In this document: piece after piece, positions 27,518 through 63,313 of the stretch
Layout of the letters: each line of letters begins with the position of its first letter
Numbering within the stretch: position 1 is the first letter of the stretch
From: Alteracholeplasma palmae J233
GTDB lineage: Bacteria; Bacillota_I; Bacilli_A; Acholeplasmatales; Acholeplasmataceae
Direction: 5' to 3'
DNA: 64,000 nt
Assembly: GCF_000968055.1 (NCBI RefSeq)
Contig: NC_022538.1
Span: forward strand, 1,027,499-1,091,498
Translations under genes and position numbers: made by a program
Notes under the pieces: model-generated
Told to the model about the DNA's origin: nothing
The model's database searches: none
The model's input: the letters and a program-made list of their open reading frames with translations, nothing else

Positions 27518-28255
27518 TTACAGTAGGTACGTATTATGATCTTCTTTTTCTATTTTAATATTTTGTTTGACGCTAGTATAAATAATTTGTGTATTCCTTA
27601 TCATAAATTCTAGCAATATTCCTATCATATCAGTATCTAATCCATCATATAAATTATCGAATAACATGAGACTATAAGTATCATTTAATGAATCTAAAAT
27701 TTTAGTTACCTTAATTTTAGAAGATTGTTCCTCGTTTTCATATTTATAAATAAACTTCCAGTTAGTGAGTACATCAAAGATTGCACTAAATAGATCGTTA
27801 TCTTTAGTATGTCTTAAAAAAGGTAATATAAGTCTTTTTTCATCCAGTTTGATCAGTTCTAAGTACTTTTTAATATCCCCTGTGACTTGCTTACCTAATT
27901 TTATACTAGATTCATTTTTAACATATATATCTTTAAAATATGAATCGTATTGTCCACTTAACCTTTCGTATATAATACTATTATTTTGAATTCTATATTC
28001 ATATTGAAACTTCTTTTCATTAATAATAAAACTAATTTCATAAATGAATACTTCATTATAATTACTAATGTATTCTAAGTTTTTTGAAGTAACTTCTCCT
28101 TTTATAAAATTATTTATTTCTTCTAAACATCTAAGAATAGTTGTTTTACCCGAATTGTTATTTCCTATAATCTCTAAAGTAGGGTAATTGCCTAATTTTA
28201 AAAGAATATCTTCTTTAAAGTATTTTACATTCTTTATTTTTATTGTCTCTATCAT
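27518..28255 (-). CDS. AAA-type ATPase of duplicated cassette, copy 1
   Basis: The 245-residue protein resembles the ATPase cores of OLD/AbiEii-like AAA proteins. It has Walker A GNNNSGKTT (about 31-39), a helical middle with the strongly conserved ERLSGQYDSYFKDIY, and Walker B-like LMLFDNLYDGLD. The usual catalytic Glu after the Walker B Asp is Asn. ATG 28255 (MIETIKIKN) is chosen because AAAGGG lies 9 bases before it and the same start is used by copy 2; ATG 28264 directly abuts the binding site. It follows the small membrane protein. It is about 60% identical by eye to 60937-61668, highest in the first 160 residues. No TOPRIM or nuclease domain is present. Function unknown. Confidence 0.75.
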   Translation of the reverse strand: MIETIKIKNVKYFKEDILLKLGNYPTLEIIGNNNSGKTTILRCLEEINNFIKGEVTSKNLEYISNYNEVFIYEISFIINEKKFQYEYRIQNNSIIYERLSGQYDSYFKDIYVKNESSIKLGKQVTGDIKKYLELIKLDEKRLILPFLRHTKDNDLFSAIFDVLTNWKFIYKYENEEQSSKIKVTKILDSLNDTYSLMLFDNLYDGLDTDMIGILLEFMIRNTQIIYTSVKQNIKIEKEDHNTYLL

Positions 28256-28303
28256 TTGATTCATCCCTTTTTAATTTTTTTATTGCCTGTTTTAAATATC
28301 TAA

Positions 28304-28597
28304 TTAACTATCTAACTTTTCACACGCATCACTTGATGTGATATCTTCCTTTTCAGCAATTTGATCTTTTTCATTTTTTATGCTTTTTTCTCTTATTTCA
28401 CCATATACTAATCCAACTATTAATCCACAAGTGATACTAAGTATTAAAAATAATATAATATATAATGCTGGTAACTTATAACCTTCATAATAGAGTCCTA
28501 TTGATAATAAAACCATTGAGGGCGGGTATAATAATCCAACAACAGAAATAACCATATTTTTATCTATATTTATTTTAATTTTCATTTTTAACCACAC
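28304..28597 (-). CDS. Small two-helix membrane protein of duplicated cassette, copy 1
   Basis: The 97-residue protein has helices at about 15-37 and 43-65 and an acidic cytoplasmic tail ending EDITSSDACEKLDS. Over the first 70 residues it is nearly identical to the protein at 61807-62025. Start GTG 28597 follows AGAGGGATGGA; that block is conserved in copy 2, although ATG 28585 is also possible. It comes just before the ATPase, with 48 bases between them, so both are probably one transcript. No known family is recognised; it could be the membrane effector or anchor of the ATPase. Confidence 0.68.
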   Translation of the reverse strand: MWLKMKIKINIDKNMVISVVGLLYPPSMVLLSIGLYYEGYKLPALYIILFLILSITCGLIVGLVYGEIREKSIKNEKDQIAEKEDITSSDACEKLDS

Positions 28598-29033
28598 TCC
28601 ATCCCTCTAGTAATCTGATTTATAAAAAAAATTCTATACTCTTTTAAAGCAATTAACTCTTTTTTTGTCTTAAAAAACTTTTTGGAGTATGCTTTTATAG
28701 TTTATAAACTTTATCAATAAAGTAATCAATATTTTATTAAGTAGCAAATCTTTAGATTGTAACTAGAATCAATTTTTATGCTTTTTATACTTATTTTGAA
28801 TTCATTTTTTAATACTAAATTGCACTTTTATGCAAATATCTTATAAATCTTATCTTTTTATAGTGGCTGTTCTATCATTTTCTGTTAAATTATCATGGCT
28901 GTTGCTACCATTTATTTCAAGCTTTTTTCATTTATCTTTTATATGAATACTGATACAGGTATCAAAATTCATAAAAAAAGGAAATAGAAAATATTAGGTT
29001 AAAGTTTGTTATTTTATACTTTATATTGCTTCG
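28598..29033 (-). other. Long leader region of cassette copy 1
   Basis: No gene of convincing quality is seen in these 436 bases. It contains the GATAC...GTATC palindrome (28951-28964) and a possible secondary promoter with TTGATA at 28960-28965 and TATAAA at 28938-28943 on the minus strand, 16 bases apart. A direct repeat, TGGCTGTT, occurs at about 28864 and 28896. Patches align with the leader of copy 2. Confidence 0.5.
28951..28964. promoter_or_regulatory. Conserved palindrome TGATAC-AG-GTATCA in leader, copy 1
   Basis: Six-base arms with a 2-base spacer, followed by AAAAT. The matching site in copy 2 is GGATAC-GT-GTATCA followed by AAAAT. Its overlap with a TTGATA -35-like box suggests an operator. 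Confidence 0.45.
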
Positions 29034-29049
29034 TAAAGGTACACCTTTA
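29034..29049. repeat. Inversion site A of copy 1
   Basis: TAAAGGT-AC-ACCTTTA: 7-bp inverted arms around an asymmetric central dinucleotide, the design of a serine-recombinase crossover site. Imperfect symmetry extends to 26 bp (CTTCG...TGAAG). It is the exact inverse of site B at 29158. Confidence 0.75.
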
Positions 29050-29157
29050 TGAAGGTATCTTTTTGTCTATAAATGCTTTTTTTGGGTATTGTTTTTGTCT
29101 TTTTTCTATTAAATATGTTAGAATATAGACACATAGTCTGTTATTTTATCTATTTTA
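29050..29157 (+). promoter_or_regulatory. Invertible promoter segment of copy 1, OFF orientation
   Basis: This 108-bp segment lies between inverted sites. It carries an extended -10 TATGTTAGAAT (29115-29124; hexamer 29119-29124) and a TTGTCT-like -35 at about 29095, reading rightward, away from the cassette genes. The same features appear in copy 2 only on the opposite strand. An internal inverted repeat TGTCTATA/TATAGACA is also present. Confidence 0.7.
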
Positions 29158-29173
29158 TAAAGGTGTACCTTTA
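29158..29173. repeat. Inversion site B of copy 1
   Basis: TAAAGGT-GT-ACCTTTA, with flanks TTTTA and TAAAA that extend the symmetry to 26 bp with only the central GT asymmetric. Its centre is 124 bp from that of site A. Confidence 0.75.
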
Positions 29174-29222
29174 TAAAAATAAGAAAATTTGGTATTGTTT
29201 AGGAATAAAATCAAATAAAAAA

Positions 29223-29261
29223 ATGAGTATAAATCCCCTTTAAAAGGAAATCTATACTCAT
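29223..29261. terminator. Bidirectional terminator next to inversion site B, end of rluD
   Basis: ATGAGTATA (29223-29231) pairs with TATACTCAT (29253-29261), extended by A-run and T-run. It ends rluD and would also stop transcripts from the rightward promoter of the copy 1 switch. Confidence 0.75.
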
Positions 29262-29263
29262 TT

Positions 29264-30166
29264 TTATATTTCTTCGTTTTCTATTTTTTTCAATACTTCT
29301 TTAAAGTTATCTGGAACATCAACTTCAAAAGTTACTAAGTCATTAGTTATAGGATGATTAAATGATAGTTTTCTAGCATGTAAATATTGTCCAGAAGACC
29401 CATATACTTTTTTAGGTCCATATATTGGATCACCTAAAATAGGATGTCCAATATAAGCTAAATGCACTCTGATTTGATGTGTTCTCCCCGTTTCTAGGAA
29501 ACACCTAATAAGTGAATAGCCTTTATATCTTTCAATTGTTTCAAAATGAGTAATTGCATCTTTACCATCATGCGTAACACTCATTTTTAGTCTATTGACT
29601 TTATGTCTACCAATTGGAGCATCTATCTTACCCTTATCTTCAATGTGTCCATAAATAATTGCGATATATTCTCTTTTAACATCATGAACTTTTAAATCTT
29701 CTGATAATTTTTTATGTGCTTTATCCGTTTTAGCTACTACTAAAAGCCCACTTGTATCTTTATCTATTCTATGAACAATCCCTGGTCGATATGTCCCATT
29801 GATATCACTTAAATCATCTATTTCATGTAAAAGTCCATGAACTAAGGTAGGTTCATTATAGCTACTAGCCGGATGAACAACTAACCCTTGAGGTTTATTA
29901 ACTACTAGAATATCTGAATCCTCATAAACGATATCTAGTTTTAAATCTACAGGTTTTAACTCTAGTGTTTTAACCTCTGGAATAATAACTGTTATAAGAT
30001 CATCTAACTTTAAGATATATCCTGTTTTTTCTTTTTTATCATTAATAAGAATATGTTCTTCTTTAATTAATTGTTGAATTCTACTTCTTGTTAAATCTAG
30101 ATTTTGAGTTAAATAGTGATCAAGTCGTTGCCCAATATCATCTGTTGTTATTTTAAATTGCTTCAT
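29264..30166 (-). CDS. rluD: Ribosomal large subunit pseudouridine synthase, RluD family
   Basis: The 300-residue protein has an N-terminal S4 RNA-binding domain (residues 1-70) and the RluA/RluD catalytic domain with HRIDKDTSGLLVVAKTD, which holds the catalytic Asp, and RTHQIRVHLAYIGHPILGD. It isomerises uridines in 23S rRNA; the exact sites are not decided by sequence. It overlaps the end of lspA by 14 bases, as in other Firmicutes-type operons. Confidence 0.9.
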   Translation of the reverse strand: MKQFKITTDDIGQRLDHYLTQNLDLTRSRIQQLIKEEHILINDKKEKTGYILKLDDLITVIIPEVKTLELKPVDLKLDIVYEDSDILVVNKPQGLVVHPASSYNEPTLVHGLLHEIDDLSDINGTYRPGIVHRIDKDTSGLLVVAKTDKAHKKLSEDLKVHDVKREYIAIIYGHIEDKGKIDAPIGRHKVNRLKMSVTHDGKDAITHFETIERYKGYSLIRCFLETGRTHQIRVHLAYIGHPILGDPIYGPKKVYGSSGQYLHARKLSFNHPITNDLVTFEVDVPDNFKEVLKKIENEEI

Positions 30167-38210: not shown

Positions 38211-40387
38211 CTGATATCTCTTTCTATTTGATAAACTTGGGATACTTTATGTAAATTAGCAATCAATTTACTGAGCTCATCAAAATTAGCAACTGATACT
38301 TTTAACTTTACTGTAGATTCTAATTTAGTGTTAGAAACAGCATTCATTTCCAAAATAGATATGCCTAAAGCATTAATGGTTGTAATTACTTCTGAAATAA
38401 GTGAGTCTCTGGTTGTTCCTACTAATTTTACCCATGTTCCAAACTTTCTAGTTACATTTTTTCCCCAGTAAGCAGGAATTAATCTATTTTTATCATATTC
38501 TGATAAATTAGGACAATCTAGTCTATGAATAACAATACCACTCCCTTTAGTAACATATCCTGCTACTTCATCATTTAATACTGGTGTACAGCAATTTGCA
38601 AGTTTTAATTGTGGATTTGTTAGTCCATCTACAATTACTCCAGTTTCACTTTGTGCAATAATTTGTCTGGTAGCTTTTTCCATTTGTTTTTGAAGCATGG
38701 CTTCTTTATCTACTTCTGGTTGAACAATTTTATTGATTACTGTTTTAACACTTATCGTGTTTTTACCAATTTCATGATATAAATCGGATAAAGTTGAGAT
38801 CATATTCTTTTCAAAGTTTTTCTTAACAAAATTATCATCTAGTGATTGTGTGATTTTATTAGCAATGAATTCTTTTTCTAACTGATCTTTTCCAGATTGA
38901 ACTAAAAAGTCTTTATTCTTTTTATTTAAAAATCCCTTAATTTTATGTCTTGCATGTGAACTTTTGGCTATTTTTAACCAGTCATCACTAGGACCAGAAG
39001 AATTTTTATTAATCTTAATACTAATAATATCTCCTGTTTTTAATTCATATTCAAGAGGGACAATTCTATCATTAACGATTGCTCCAACCATTCTTGTTCC
39101 CAAATCAGTATGTATTCTAAAAGCAAAGTCAATAGGCGTAGATCCTTTTGGTAATTCAACTACTTGTCCTTTTGGAGTAAAAATATATACATTAGCACTT
39201 AAGATATCACTTTTTACTGTTTCAACAAATGATTCTGATCCACCGTCTCTATCATCATCGTCTTCTGACATCTTAAGAAGTTCGCCATACCATTTAAGTT
39301 TTTCAGCAATTTCAAATTGTTCTTTTTCTTTGGAGTATGCTTTATTTTCTTTATAAGCCCAGTGAGCAGCAATACCATTTTCAGCAATATCATCCATCTC
39401 TTTAGTTCTAATCTGAACTTCAAATAATGTTCCATCATTTGCTAAAACAGTTGTATGAAGTGATTGATATAAATTGGGTTTAGGAACAGCAATATAGTCT
39501 TTAAATCTTCTAGGAATAGGAGTATAGTTTGCATGAATTAATCCTAGCGCTTGATAACAGTTTTCAACTTTATCAACAATAATTCTTACCGCAAGTAAGT
39601 CATAAATATCTTCAAAATCTCTATTATTTTTAACCATTTTTTTATAGATACTATAGATATTTTTGATTCTTCCTTTAATTTCATACTGATTTAAATCATA
39701 TTCTTTAAACATTGTTTTTATATTTTCTATAACAAGTTCTATTGAATGTTCTCTTTGTTCCATTTTTAACTTGATTAAATTATTAACTTTATAATACATA
39801 CCTGGATCAGTATATCTTAAAGATCTATCCTCAAGTTCTGCTTTAATCCTAAAAAGTCCTAAGCGGTGTGCTAAGGGCGCATAAATTTCTAAAGTTTCTG
39901 AAGCAATCCTAACTTGTTTATCTTTAGGCATAAAGTCAAGCGTTCGCATATTATGTAGTCTATCTGCAATTTTAATAATAACCACTCGAATATCTCTTGC
40001 CATCGCAAGCAACATTTTTTGATGATTATCAGACTGCGTGCCTTCTTGATTGAATGATAGTTTAGTTAGTTTCGTGACACCATCAATTAGGCTTGCTACA
40101 TCTTTACCAAACATTTGTGTTAAATCATCAAAAGTAACATCTGTATCTTCCACTATATCATGTAATAAACCTGCAACAAGTGTATTAGGACCCGCATTAA
40201 GTCCAGCCAAAATACGTGTAACAGCAACCGGATGAATAATATACGGTTCTCCACTACGACGCATTTGACCTGTGTGTTTGCTTTTAGCTAACAAGTAGGC
40301 TTTTTCAATTTTATCTAAATCTTCTTTTTTAGTAATATATTTTGAAACATCATCTAATAATGCTTCATATAATGGGTCTACTTGCAT
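38207..40387 (-). CDS. rel: Bifunctional (p)ppGpp synthetase/hydrolase
   Basis: The 726-residue RelA/SpoT protein has the HD hydrolase domain (GQMRRSGEPYIIHPVAV, LLHDIVEDTDV), synthetase domain (RIKNIYSIYKKM, LVRII-type region, HTTV), TGS domain and C-terminal zinc-finger/ACT region. The intact HD motif suggests both hydrolysis and synthesis. It sets the stringent response to starvation. It is co-transcribed with apt and dtd. Confidence 0.95.
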   Translation of the reverse strand: MQVDPLYEALLDDVSKYITKKEDLDKIEKAYLLAKSKHTGQMRRSGEPYIIHPVAVTRILAGLNAGPNTLVAGLLHDIVEDTDVTFDDLTQMFGKDVASLIDGVTKLTKLSFNQEGTQSDNHQKMLLAMARDIRVVIIKIADRLHNMRTLDFMPKDKQVRIASETLEIYAPLAHRLGLFRIKAELEDRSLRYTDPGMYYKVNNLIKLKMEQREHSIELVIENIKTMFKEYDLNQYEIKGRIKNIYSIYKKMVKNNRDFEDIYDLLAVRIIVDKVENCYQALGLIHANYTPIPRRFKDYIAVPKPNLYQSLHTTVLANDGTLFEVQIRTKEMDDIAENGIAAHWAYKENKAYSKEKEQFEIAEKLKWYGELLKMSEDDDDRDGGSESFVETVKSDILSANVYIFTPKGQVVELPKGSTPIDFAFRIHTDLGTRMVGAIVNDRIVPLEYELKTGDIISIKINKNSSGPSDDWLKIAKSSHARHKIKGFLNKKNKDFLVQSGKDQLEKEFIANKITQSLDDNFVKKNFEKNMISTLSDLYHEIGKNTISVKTVINKIVQPEVDKEAMLQKQMEKATRQIIAQSETGVIVDGLTNPQLKLANCCTPVLNDEVAGYVTKGSGIVIHRLDCPNLSEYDKNRLIPAYWGKNVTRKFGTWVKLVGTTRDSLISEVITTINALGISILEMNAVSNTKLESTVKLKVSVANFDELSKLIANLHKVSQVYQIERDIR

Positions 40388-60936: not shown

Positions 60937-61668
60937 TTATATACTAAGTTCTTGTAATAGATAAGTATTATCTTCTAGTTTTTCTAGTTTAATATTTTGA
61001 TTAACGGTAGTGTAGATGACTTGTTTATTTGTTTTTACAATTTTATCTAATAAATAGGTAATTGTTTGTTCATCCAGTCTATTATATAAATCATCTAACA
61101 ATAATACTTCGCACGATGAATCAAGTAAATCTAATATCTCATTTGCCTTTGCTTTATATGTATAGACAAATTTACAATTAGTAATTTTATTTAATATAAT
61201 ACTAAATAGATCATTATCTTTAGTGTATTGCAATAGAGGCAAAAGTAGTTTTGTTTCTTCTAAATTAATGAGTTCCAAATATTTTTTTATATCCCCAATT
61301 ACTTGTTTTCCCAATTTTAAATTAGAGCCATTTTTTATATAGATGTCTTTAAAATAAGAGTCATATTGACCACTTAATCTTTCATAAACAACTTTTGATG
61401 CTAATACTCTAAATTCATATTGGAATTTTTTTTCATTAAGTATAAAGCTAAGTTCATAAGTAAATATTTCTTTATGATTAATATAGTTTAAGTCTTTAGA
61501 AGTAATGTCACCTCTAATGAAGCACACTATTTCTTCTAGACTTTTAAGTATCGTTGTTTTTCCTGTGTTGTTATTACCAATAATCTCTAATGTTTTGTAG
61601 CTACCTAATTTTAGAGTAATAGGTTCTTGAAAATATTTGATATTACTTATTTTTATTGTTTCTATCAT
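60937..61668 (-). CDS. AAA-type ATPase of duplicated cassette, copy 2
   Basis: The 243-residue paralogue of 27518-28255 has Walker A GNNNTGKTT and a Walker B-like VLLLDDLYNRLDEQT, in which the residue after the first Asp is Asp rather than Glu. The block ERLSGQYDSYFKDIY and GDIKKYLELI is identical or nearly so in both copies, while the C-terminal third differs more. The copy 2 product lacks about 10 residues before the Walker B strand. AAAGGG lies 9 bases before ATG 61668. It is the second gene of the copy 2 cassette. Function unknown; related ATPases occur in OLD-like defence proteins. Confidence 0.75.
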   Translation of the reverse strand: MIETIKISNIKYFQEPITLKLGSYKTLEIIGNNNTGKTTILKSLEEIVCFIRGDITSKDLNYINHKEIFTYELSFILNEKKFQYEFRVLASKVVYERLSGQYDSYFKDIYIKNGSNLKLGKQVIGDIKKYLELINLEETKLLLPLLQYTKDNDLFSIILNKITNCKFVYTYKAKANEILDLLDSSCEVLLLDDLYNRLDEQTITYLLDKIVKTNKQVIYTTVNQNIKLEKLEDNTYLLQELSI

Positions 61669-61806: not shown

Positions 61807-62025
61807 TTAAGTTTTTTCTTTTATTTCACCATATACTATTCCAACTATTAATCCACAAGTTATACTAAGTATTAAAAATAATATGATGCACAGTGCAGGT
61901 AATATATAACCTTCAAGGTATAACCCTATTGATAATAAAACCATTGAGGGTGGATATAATAATCCTACAACAGATATAACCATATTCTTGTCTATATTTA
62001 TTTTGATCTTCATTTTCAGAAACAC
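61807..62025 (-). CDS. Small two-helix membrane protein of duplicated cassette, copy 2, tail frameshifted
   Basis: GTG 62025 follows AGAGGATGGA, as in copy 1, and gives 72 residues with two helices nearly identical to copy 1. After GEIKEK the frame ends at TAA 61807. One more A in the A6 run at 61812-61817 would extend it by about 25 residues (LKSKRDKVNENEDS...) to a stop at 61736, matching the acidic tail of copy 1. The tail is therefore truncated in this copy, or the run length varies. Confidence 0.65.
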   Translation of the reverse strand: MFLKMKIKINIDKNMVISVVGLLYPPSMVLLSIGLYLEGYILPALCIILFLILSITCGLIVGIVYGEIKEKT

Positions 62026-62483
62026 TCCATCCTCTATTTCCAAGTTTGCAATAATTAAATTTTCCTAATCTTTTAATATTATTTGCTCTTTTTGTGCGCG
62101 TAACCATTGTGAAGTATGTGCCCTTATTTATGATTCATCTGGTAAAATATTCAATCTTTTGTTTCATTAAGAATGACTATATTAGATAGATTATCTAGAC
62201 TATATTTAAATCGATTTTAAGCATTTTATATAGTATTTTTTCATAATTAATTTTATGATTTTTAATGCTAAATAGTCAATTTATACGAAAAATAACAAAT
62301 TTTATTATTTGTGCTTATTTTTTATTCAGACTATCATTACATGTTTGTGGCTAATTACTAGTATTTTTTATTTTATACTTCTAATAAATATGGATACGTG
62401 TATCAAAATAAATGCCAAAAGTATAATTTTAGAGCTTAACATCCAGTTCAGTTTTCTTTGTGCTTAACAGTTTATATTACTCA
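62026..62483 (-). other. Long leader region of cassette copy 2
   Basis: These 458 bases lie between the promoter switch and the membrane protein gene. They contain the GGATAC-GT-GTATCA palindrome at 62392 and AT-rich patches that align with the leader of copy 1. A 64-codon frame overlapping the membrane gene is not conserved in copy 1 and is not called. Confidence 0.5.
62392..62405. promoter_or_regulatory. Conserved palindrome GGATAC-GT-GTATCA in leader, copy 2
   Basis: Counterpart of 28951-28964, with the same GTATCAAAAT flank. A minus-strand TTGATA overlaps it, as in copy 1. Confidence 0.45.
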
Positions 62484-62499
62484 TAAAGGTACACCTTTA
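62484..62499. repeat. Inversion site A of copy 2
   Basis: TAAAGGT-AC-ACCTTTA, identical to site A of copy 1. Confidence 0.75.
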
Positions 62500-62607
62500 T
62501 AAATTAAATTTTAAAAAGGATTATACACGTCTATTTTAGCATATTTAGAGAAAAAAGGCTTGTATTATCAATCAAATGTATCAATTCTAGACATTTTTAA
62601 AGCATTA
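62500..62607 (-). promoter_or_regulatory. Invertible promoter segment of copy 2, ON orientation
   Basis: The segment is 108 bp, as in copy 1. Its reverse complement aligns with copy 1 in the same register: GTCTA at offset 16, CTTTTTTCT at about 50, and AAATATGnTAnAATA at 62-76. The extended -10 TATGCTAAAAT (hexamer 62533-62538) therefore reads leftward, toward the cassette genes. Confidence 0.72.
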
Positions 62608-62623
62608 TAAAGGTGTACCTTTA
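62608..62623. repeat. Inversion site B of copy 2
   Basis: TAAAGGT-GT-ACCTTTA, identical to site B of copy 1 and 124 bp centre to centre from site A. Confidence 0.75.
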
Positions 62624-62638
62624 ACAAATTTTACTTTT

Positions 62639-62665
62639 ATGCTTAAATTTTGAGCATTTTTTTTT
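62639..62665 (+). terminator. Terminator between promoter switch and recombinase gene
   Basis: ATGCT (62639-62643) pairs with AGCAT (62653-62657) and is followed by nine T. It would block rightward transcripts from the switch before they reach the recombinase. Confidence 0.55.
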
Positions 62666-62685: not shown

Positions 62686-62694
62686 TGATATAAT
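62686..62694 (+). promoter_or_regulatory. Extended -10 promoter of the recombinase gene
   Basis: TGATATAAT matches TGnTATAAT exactly, 31 bases before the start. No strong -35 is seen. Confidence 0.55.
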
Positions 62695-62725: not shown

Positions 62726-63313
62726 ATGCGCTACGGTTATGTTAGAGTTTCAACAATCACACAAAACATCGACAGACAATATGAAGAAATGCTAAGGCAA
62801 GGCTTAAGTGCTAAACAAATTATTATTGATAAGCAAAGTGGGAAAGACTTTGAGAGAAAAAATTATCAAAATTTAAGAAAAAAACTTAAGAAAAATGATT
62901 TACTACTAATCCACTCCATTGACAGATTAGGTAGAAATTATGATATGATCATTGAAGAATGGCATTATATTACAAAAGTTATTGAAGCGGATATCAAAGT
63001 ACTTGATATGCCCTTACTAGACACTAGAAATGATGCCAATAATTTGGTTGGTAAGTTTATAAGTGATATTGTTTTACAAATTTTATCGTTTGTTGCGGAA
63101 ACTGAAAGAAAAAATATTAAACAGCGTCAAGCTGAAGGAATAAAAATAGCTAAAGAAAAAGGCGTCCACATGGGGCGCCCTAAATATGTACTTCCTAATA
63201 ATTTTAAGAAAGTAGTTAAGAAGTATAAGAATAATGAATTAACTGTTTCTCAAGCTTTGCAAATACTTGATATGAAATACTCTACTTTTTTAAAGTATTC
63301 TAAAGATATCTAG
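62726..63313 (+). CDS. Serine recombinase (resolvase/invertase family)
   Basis: The 195-residue protein begins MRYGYVRVSTITQNIDRQ with the nucleophilic Ser in YVRVS. It has the conserved Arg segment HSIDRLGRNYDMI, the E-helix region FVAETERKNIKQRQAEG, and a C-terminal HTH (LTVSQALQILDMKYSTFLKY). Length and layout match small DNA invertases and resolvases. ATG 62726 is chosen because AAAGGAA is 5 bases before it; GTG 62705 lacks a site. It lies 102 bases from inversion site B of copy 2 and is the natural enzyme for both switches. Confidence 0.88.
   Translation: MRYGYVRVSTITQNIDRQYEEMLRQGLSAKQIIIDKQSGKDFERKNYQNLRKKLKKNDLLLIHSIDRLGRNYDMIIEEWHYITKVIEADIKVLDMPLLDTRNDANNLVGKFISDIVLQILSFVAETERKNIKQRQAEGIKIAKEKGVHMGRPKYVLPNNFKKVVKKYKNNELTVSQALQILDMKYSTFLKYSKDI

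Follow-up and report, generated by a model that had tools for sequence, protein, structure and literature searches.

The window analyzed here, a 64,000-nt stretch of NC_022538.1, belongs to a genome of one contig (1,554,229 bp; G000) and contains two loci, copies 1 and 2, in which a short segment is bounded by a pair of inverted sites. In copy 1, the 16-mers TAAAGGTACACCTTTA (29034–29049, core AC) and TAAAGGTGTACCTTTA (29158–29173, core GT) enclose an interior at 29050–29157. In copy 2, the same 16-mers at 62484–62499 (core AC) and 62608–62623 (core GT) enclose 62500–62607. A preliminary description of this DNA had reported one site pair with equal spacing in both copies, and the start-to-start distance is indeed 124 bp in each. 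To the left of either switch, two genes are encoded on the minus strand: a small membrane protein, the first controlled gene (28304–28585, 93 aa in copy 1; 61807–62013, 68 aa in copy 2), and an ABC/AAA_21-type ATPase (27518–28264, 248 aa in copy 1; 60937–61668, 243 aa in copy 2). A plus-strand serine recombinase (invertase) gene (62726–63313, 195 aa), recognized by profile and structure-relative searches, starts ~100 bp to the right of the copy 2 switch.

Opposite interiors in paralogous loci

All four sites take the form TAAAGGT-NN-ACCTTTA and are perfect palindromes save for the central dinucleotide, their polarity coming from AC or GT alone. Inversion by serine recombinases requires such polarity: with AC in one site and GT in its partner, matching overhangs are regained by inversion alone. 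Both loci thus have the inverted sites and asymmetric crossover core of a serine-invertase-controlled invertible promoter. The 14-mer has eight near-matches in the window, a count equalled in 0 of 100 dinucleotide shuffles of the window; one further exact match to the degenerate 14-mer pattern in the genome is a lone symmetric site at 465140. Sites also recur in direct orientation from one switch to the other (29034–29173 and 62484–62623), so that cross-recombination between the two could delete or invert ~33 kb, and something must disfavour it.

The interiors were compared as the 110 bp between the 14-mers by global alignment in both orientations, with 2000 shuffles each. As had been claimed, copy 1 matches copy 2 only as the reverse complement, with a score of 84 (shuffle mean 42.5, sd 7.7; 0 of 2000 shuffles as good). 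Direct-orientation homology was rejected, as its score of 41 was reached by 633 of 2000 shuffles (mean 37.2, sd 7.4). Ungapped identity was 62/110 for the reverse complement versus 37/110 for the direct orientation, and the landmarks GTCTA, CTTTTTTCT and AAATATGnTAnAATA fall in register within the reverse-complement alignment, again as described. The left flanks, which extend from the leader across the small membrane protein gene into the first part of the ATPase gene, align directly with a score of 857, compared with 355 against the reversed left flank, which is shuffle level (~351); the flanking genes therefore have the same orientation in both loci. No homology was found on alignment of the right flanks. 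Because the left flanks align and the right ones do not, the duplicated unit comprises the switch, the leader and two genes, with the interior alone reversed. The opposite orientation of the interiors within unreversed flanks is thereby confirmed, the two orientations being supplied by paralogous loci rather than by alleles of one locus or species.

Both controlled genes have dN well below dS between copies (ATPase, dN 0.23 and dS 1.96; membrane protein, dN 0.055 and dS 0.56), which places both copies under purifying selection. The dS of the membrane protein gene is far under that of its ATPase neighbor, hinting at gene conversion or a DNA-level constraint. By its sequence, the small protein is a membrane protein, probably with two helices; in copy 2, its C-terminal tail is frameshifted relative to copy 1 and shorter. 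The best defence-library match of the ATPase was AbiLi (1e-13, among many AAA ATPases), a match too general for naming the protein, and its predicted structure, built from a two-row alignment, was too poor to use (mean pLDDT 39.9). Outside G000, no ATPase relatives were found in the plasmids or phages searched. The ATPase was detected in 2 of 88 genomes of the family sample, the second being a 30% partial match, and in 1 of 295 genomes of the phylum sample at E ≤ 1e-10, that one being G000 itself.

Recombinases and related switches

The window recombinase matches Pfam Resolvase (3e-25) and the PHROG DNA invertase family (5e-44), with Tn552 bin3/Sin as its closest solved relative; at the level of sequence, then, a small serine recombinase lies near the sites. 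A second recombinase, 68% identical, is encoded at genome positions 39102–39671 beside a third site pair (39736–39872, 125 bp apart), bringing the totals for G000 to two such recombinases and three site pairs, two of which lie in the window.

At E ≤ 1e-3, 9 of 61 genomes sampled from the family have a recombinase match. Exact site pairs (gap 95–125) were confined to the same three genomes, G000, G003 and G039, whether 88 family genomes or 395 class genomes were scanned; all three have the recombinase. Elsewhere, site pairs beside homologous recombinases are usually 114–125 bp apart. The pair in G044 is degenerate, and just one site is present in G034. Of 38 recombinase-relative loci, 9 have a GTnnAC pair in inverted orientation no more than 600 bp away where mononucleotide shuffles predicted 0, the motif having been picked after the first sites were known and the test designed afterwards. 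The other 29 loci had no strict pair, and three of the nine pairs had a self-complementary TA core. Most forks of the recombinase tree are weak; the window recombinase falls outside the DpnII-linked group (97/93).

The third switch of G000 and the switches of G003, G039 and G044 adjoin genes for a DpnII endonuclease and for two methyltransferases, one D12 and one N6_N4, with both methyltransferase frames short in G044. At the end of a DpnII cluster (L054:8751-9356), one gene encodes a DpnI_C HTH domain together with a T5orf172 domain. In two Clostridia MAGs, the same sites, with spacings of 216 bp (L009) and 156 bp (L010), lie before a methylase of Eco57I type and a ResIII protein. Recombinase relatives at L011 and L013 also lie by methylase or ResIII genes, with no site pair passing the test there. 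Non-defence neighbors of recombinase relatives include a VWA/PP2C cluster (L026) and large LRR or beta-helix proteins (L030 and L019). Besides copy 1, the AAGGTnnACCTT subgroup comprises seven loci, six of them restriction-linked and the seventh copy 2. Since other relatives adjoin non-defence genes, the link to defence belongs to this subgroup and not to the whole recombinase family. The G034 locus (L056:4900-5060) is a decayed switch: it retains the recombinase and one site, and lacks both the DpnII operon and the other site of its relative G039.

Among viral contigs, none held a site pair, two loci carried a recombinase relative, and 93 phage records matched the recombinase, all under 60% identity. 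Rfam gave no matches in the window. A Cas9 gene match in the same genome (G000:C1:305608-308211, L069) contains three TAA stops in the match region, which fits the degraded CRISPR/Cas system reported for A. palmae J233, 11 other acholeplasma genomes having none (PMC6882279).

Direction of the putative promoter and the proposed switch

The putative promoter of copy 1 is an extended −10, TGTTAGAAT (29116–29124, plus strand). Its −10, TAGAAT at 29119–29124, reads rightward, away from the copy 1 genes, in agreement with the preliminary description. The copy 2 counterpart, TGCTAAAAT (62533–62541, minus strand), reads towards the controlled genes. Copy 2 is accordingly predicted to be ON and copy 1 OFF, the latter from the direction of its extended −10 together with a leader in which no fixed promoter is conserved. 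Candidates for such a fixed promoter were rejected: two scans returned 1 (shuffle mean 3.8) and 4 (mean 4.2) promoter-like sites, none common to both leaders, and TTGATA-16-TATAAA, read by eye in copy 1, has no counterpart in copy 2. Neither copy has a good −35. A consensus scan returned one promoter-like site near copy 1, fewer than in shuffles (3.3), and a copy 2 promoter (62611–62584, minus strand) that differs from the conserved extended −10.

Exactly one TGNTANNAT occurs per interior in 8 of 8 examined AAGGTnnACCTT-type switches (summed chance 1.44), with a weak −35; the eight represent only about four independent lineages, and the right site of G044 is degenerate. Copy 2 and L010 have the motif directed at the controlled operon; in copy 1, the third switch of G000, G003, G039, G044 and L009, it points the other way. 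On this reading, the four DpnII operons would be OFF in the assemblies. Other recombinase-linked interiors contain TGNTANNAT in four of eight cases (L033, L014, L015 and L026; absent from L012, L037, L030 and L035).

Past the copy 1 right site, a terminator hairpin (29219–29265) was called on the minus strand for a pseudouridine synthase gene; the plus strand folds too, ahead of a T run. Between the copy 2 switch and the recombinase gene lies a terminator-like hairpin with a T run (62639–62657, plus strand, −6.0 kcal/mol), missed by the consensus scan, followed by an extended −10, TGATATAAT (62686–62694, plus strand), outside the invertible segment. By eye, L009 and L010 also have a hairpin and T run after the right site; none was spotted there in the DpnII loci. 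Helical phasing of the site spacing was set aside as suggestive only (Rayleigh p ~0.09 over 10 distinct lengths at 10.5 bp/turn; p 0.0036 over 14 non-independent entries).

Copy 1 is very probably one of at least three promoter switches in this genome that are flipped by a serine invertase. As we propose it, a small serine recombinase, either the window enzyme (62726–63313) or its relative (39102–39671), would bind the palindromic arms and cut at the central dinucleotide, whereupon the segment, carrying one extended −10 promoter, would flip. With the promoter leftward, the small membrane protein and ATPase genes would be driven, as predicted for copy 2; with the promoter rightward, transcription would run into the terminator, as predicted for copy 1. 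Lacking an adjacent recombinase of its own, copy 1 would be flipped in trans. We infer from these features which enzymes may serve the switches and that inversion presumably continues.

It is unlikely that the loci are instead a frozen relic, in which a single inversion dates from about the time of the duplication or later and both copies have stopped switching. Such systems do decay, as the recombinase with one intact site and no restriction operon in G034 indicates, and copy 2 has a truncated membrane protein compared with copy 1. However, the four sites have been kept identical over 16 bp despite wide divergence of interior and leader, the recombinase frame is intact with catalytic-region motifs found by pattern test, and the ATPases have been held under purifying selection. 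We also judge it improbable that the inversion is real but acts chiefly on the recombinase gene, as feedback, or on both sides, with the ATPase pair not its main target. The opposite orientation in copy 2 would face the recombinase, as the promoter does in four DpnII-linked relatives, but the hairpin and separate extended −10 stand between the copy 2 switch and that gene, the copy 2 layout is shared (by eye) with L009 and L010, and copy 1 has no recombinase adjoining it. Although the near-perfect palindromes, broken at two bases only, and a separate conserved palindrome in both leaders (GATACNNGTATC, a possible operator at 28952–28963 and 62393–62404, with only three exact copies in the whole genome) might suggest operators of a transcription regulator with an incidentally reversed interior, this is very hard to credit, as inverted pairs recur by serine recombinase genes at near-constant spacing and a reversed interior with unreversed flanks would be left unexplained.

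A possible portable switch and its known counterparts

Facing DpnII-type genes in four relatives and Eco57I-like/ResIII genes in two Clostridia MAGs, the invertase-controlled switch looks like a portable ON/OFF module that is often placed before defence genes. The module would consist of a GTnnAC-site serine invertase and an invertible promoter of about 110–220 bp, and would precede unrelated defence operons, of DpnII type in several Acholeplasmataceae and of Eco57I/ResIII type in Clostridia. By analogy with the neighbors of related switches, the ATPase pair may also act in defence. We raise as a tentative possibility, on the doubtful side, that the portable switch and the membrane protein/ATPase pair form a new phase-variable anti-phage system present as two independently flipped copies; if so, a population would hold several ON/OFF combinations. 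Together, the sequences provide evidence that a serine recombinase inverts promoters in an Acholeplasma-like genome. They suggest bet-hedging against phage in which entire restriction systems, and possibly an undescribed ATPase defence pair, are turned ON and OFF, and the site consensus makes further such switches findable by pattern search. Titles and abstract starts in the open literature yielded no Acholeplasma invertible promoter and no DpnII operon so controlled. The biochemistry is of a known kind. To judge from the searches, neither the cassette nor its targets have been described before.

Four known systems come closest. Mpi of Bacteroides is a master serine invertase that flips promoters at several short inverted sites, some of them in trans, and the proposed arrangement resembles it in each of these respects. 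The sites differ, the targets here are an ATPase pair and restriction-modification genes rather than surface polysaccharides, and the window recombinase scores 55.2 bits against the Mpi family (NCBIfam NF009949), under the equivalog cut-off of 272. Hin and Gin likewise pair a serine recombinase with inverted sites that have a 2-bp core and invert a promoter, as proposed here, and they require a Fis-bound enhancer. The Hin sites are about 1 kb apart, compared with 124 bp here, and among solved structures the window recombinase matches Tn552 bin3/Sin far better than the DNA-invertase chains 4m6f and 3uj3. Invertons (Jiang et al. 2019) are reportedly short promoter segments between inverted repeats upstream of operons, a description that would also suit the present segments; what sets the latter apart is a recombinase that commonly lies next to them, a GTnnAC palindrome as the site and an Acholeplasma-like host. 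Finally, hsdS shuffling makes restriction-modification phase-variable through DNA inversion that shuffles the recognition subunit (PMC5903667). The likeness is that restriction-modification genes come under inversion control, whereas the promoter in the relatives described here would switch a whole DpnII-type or Eco57I/ResIII system.
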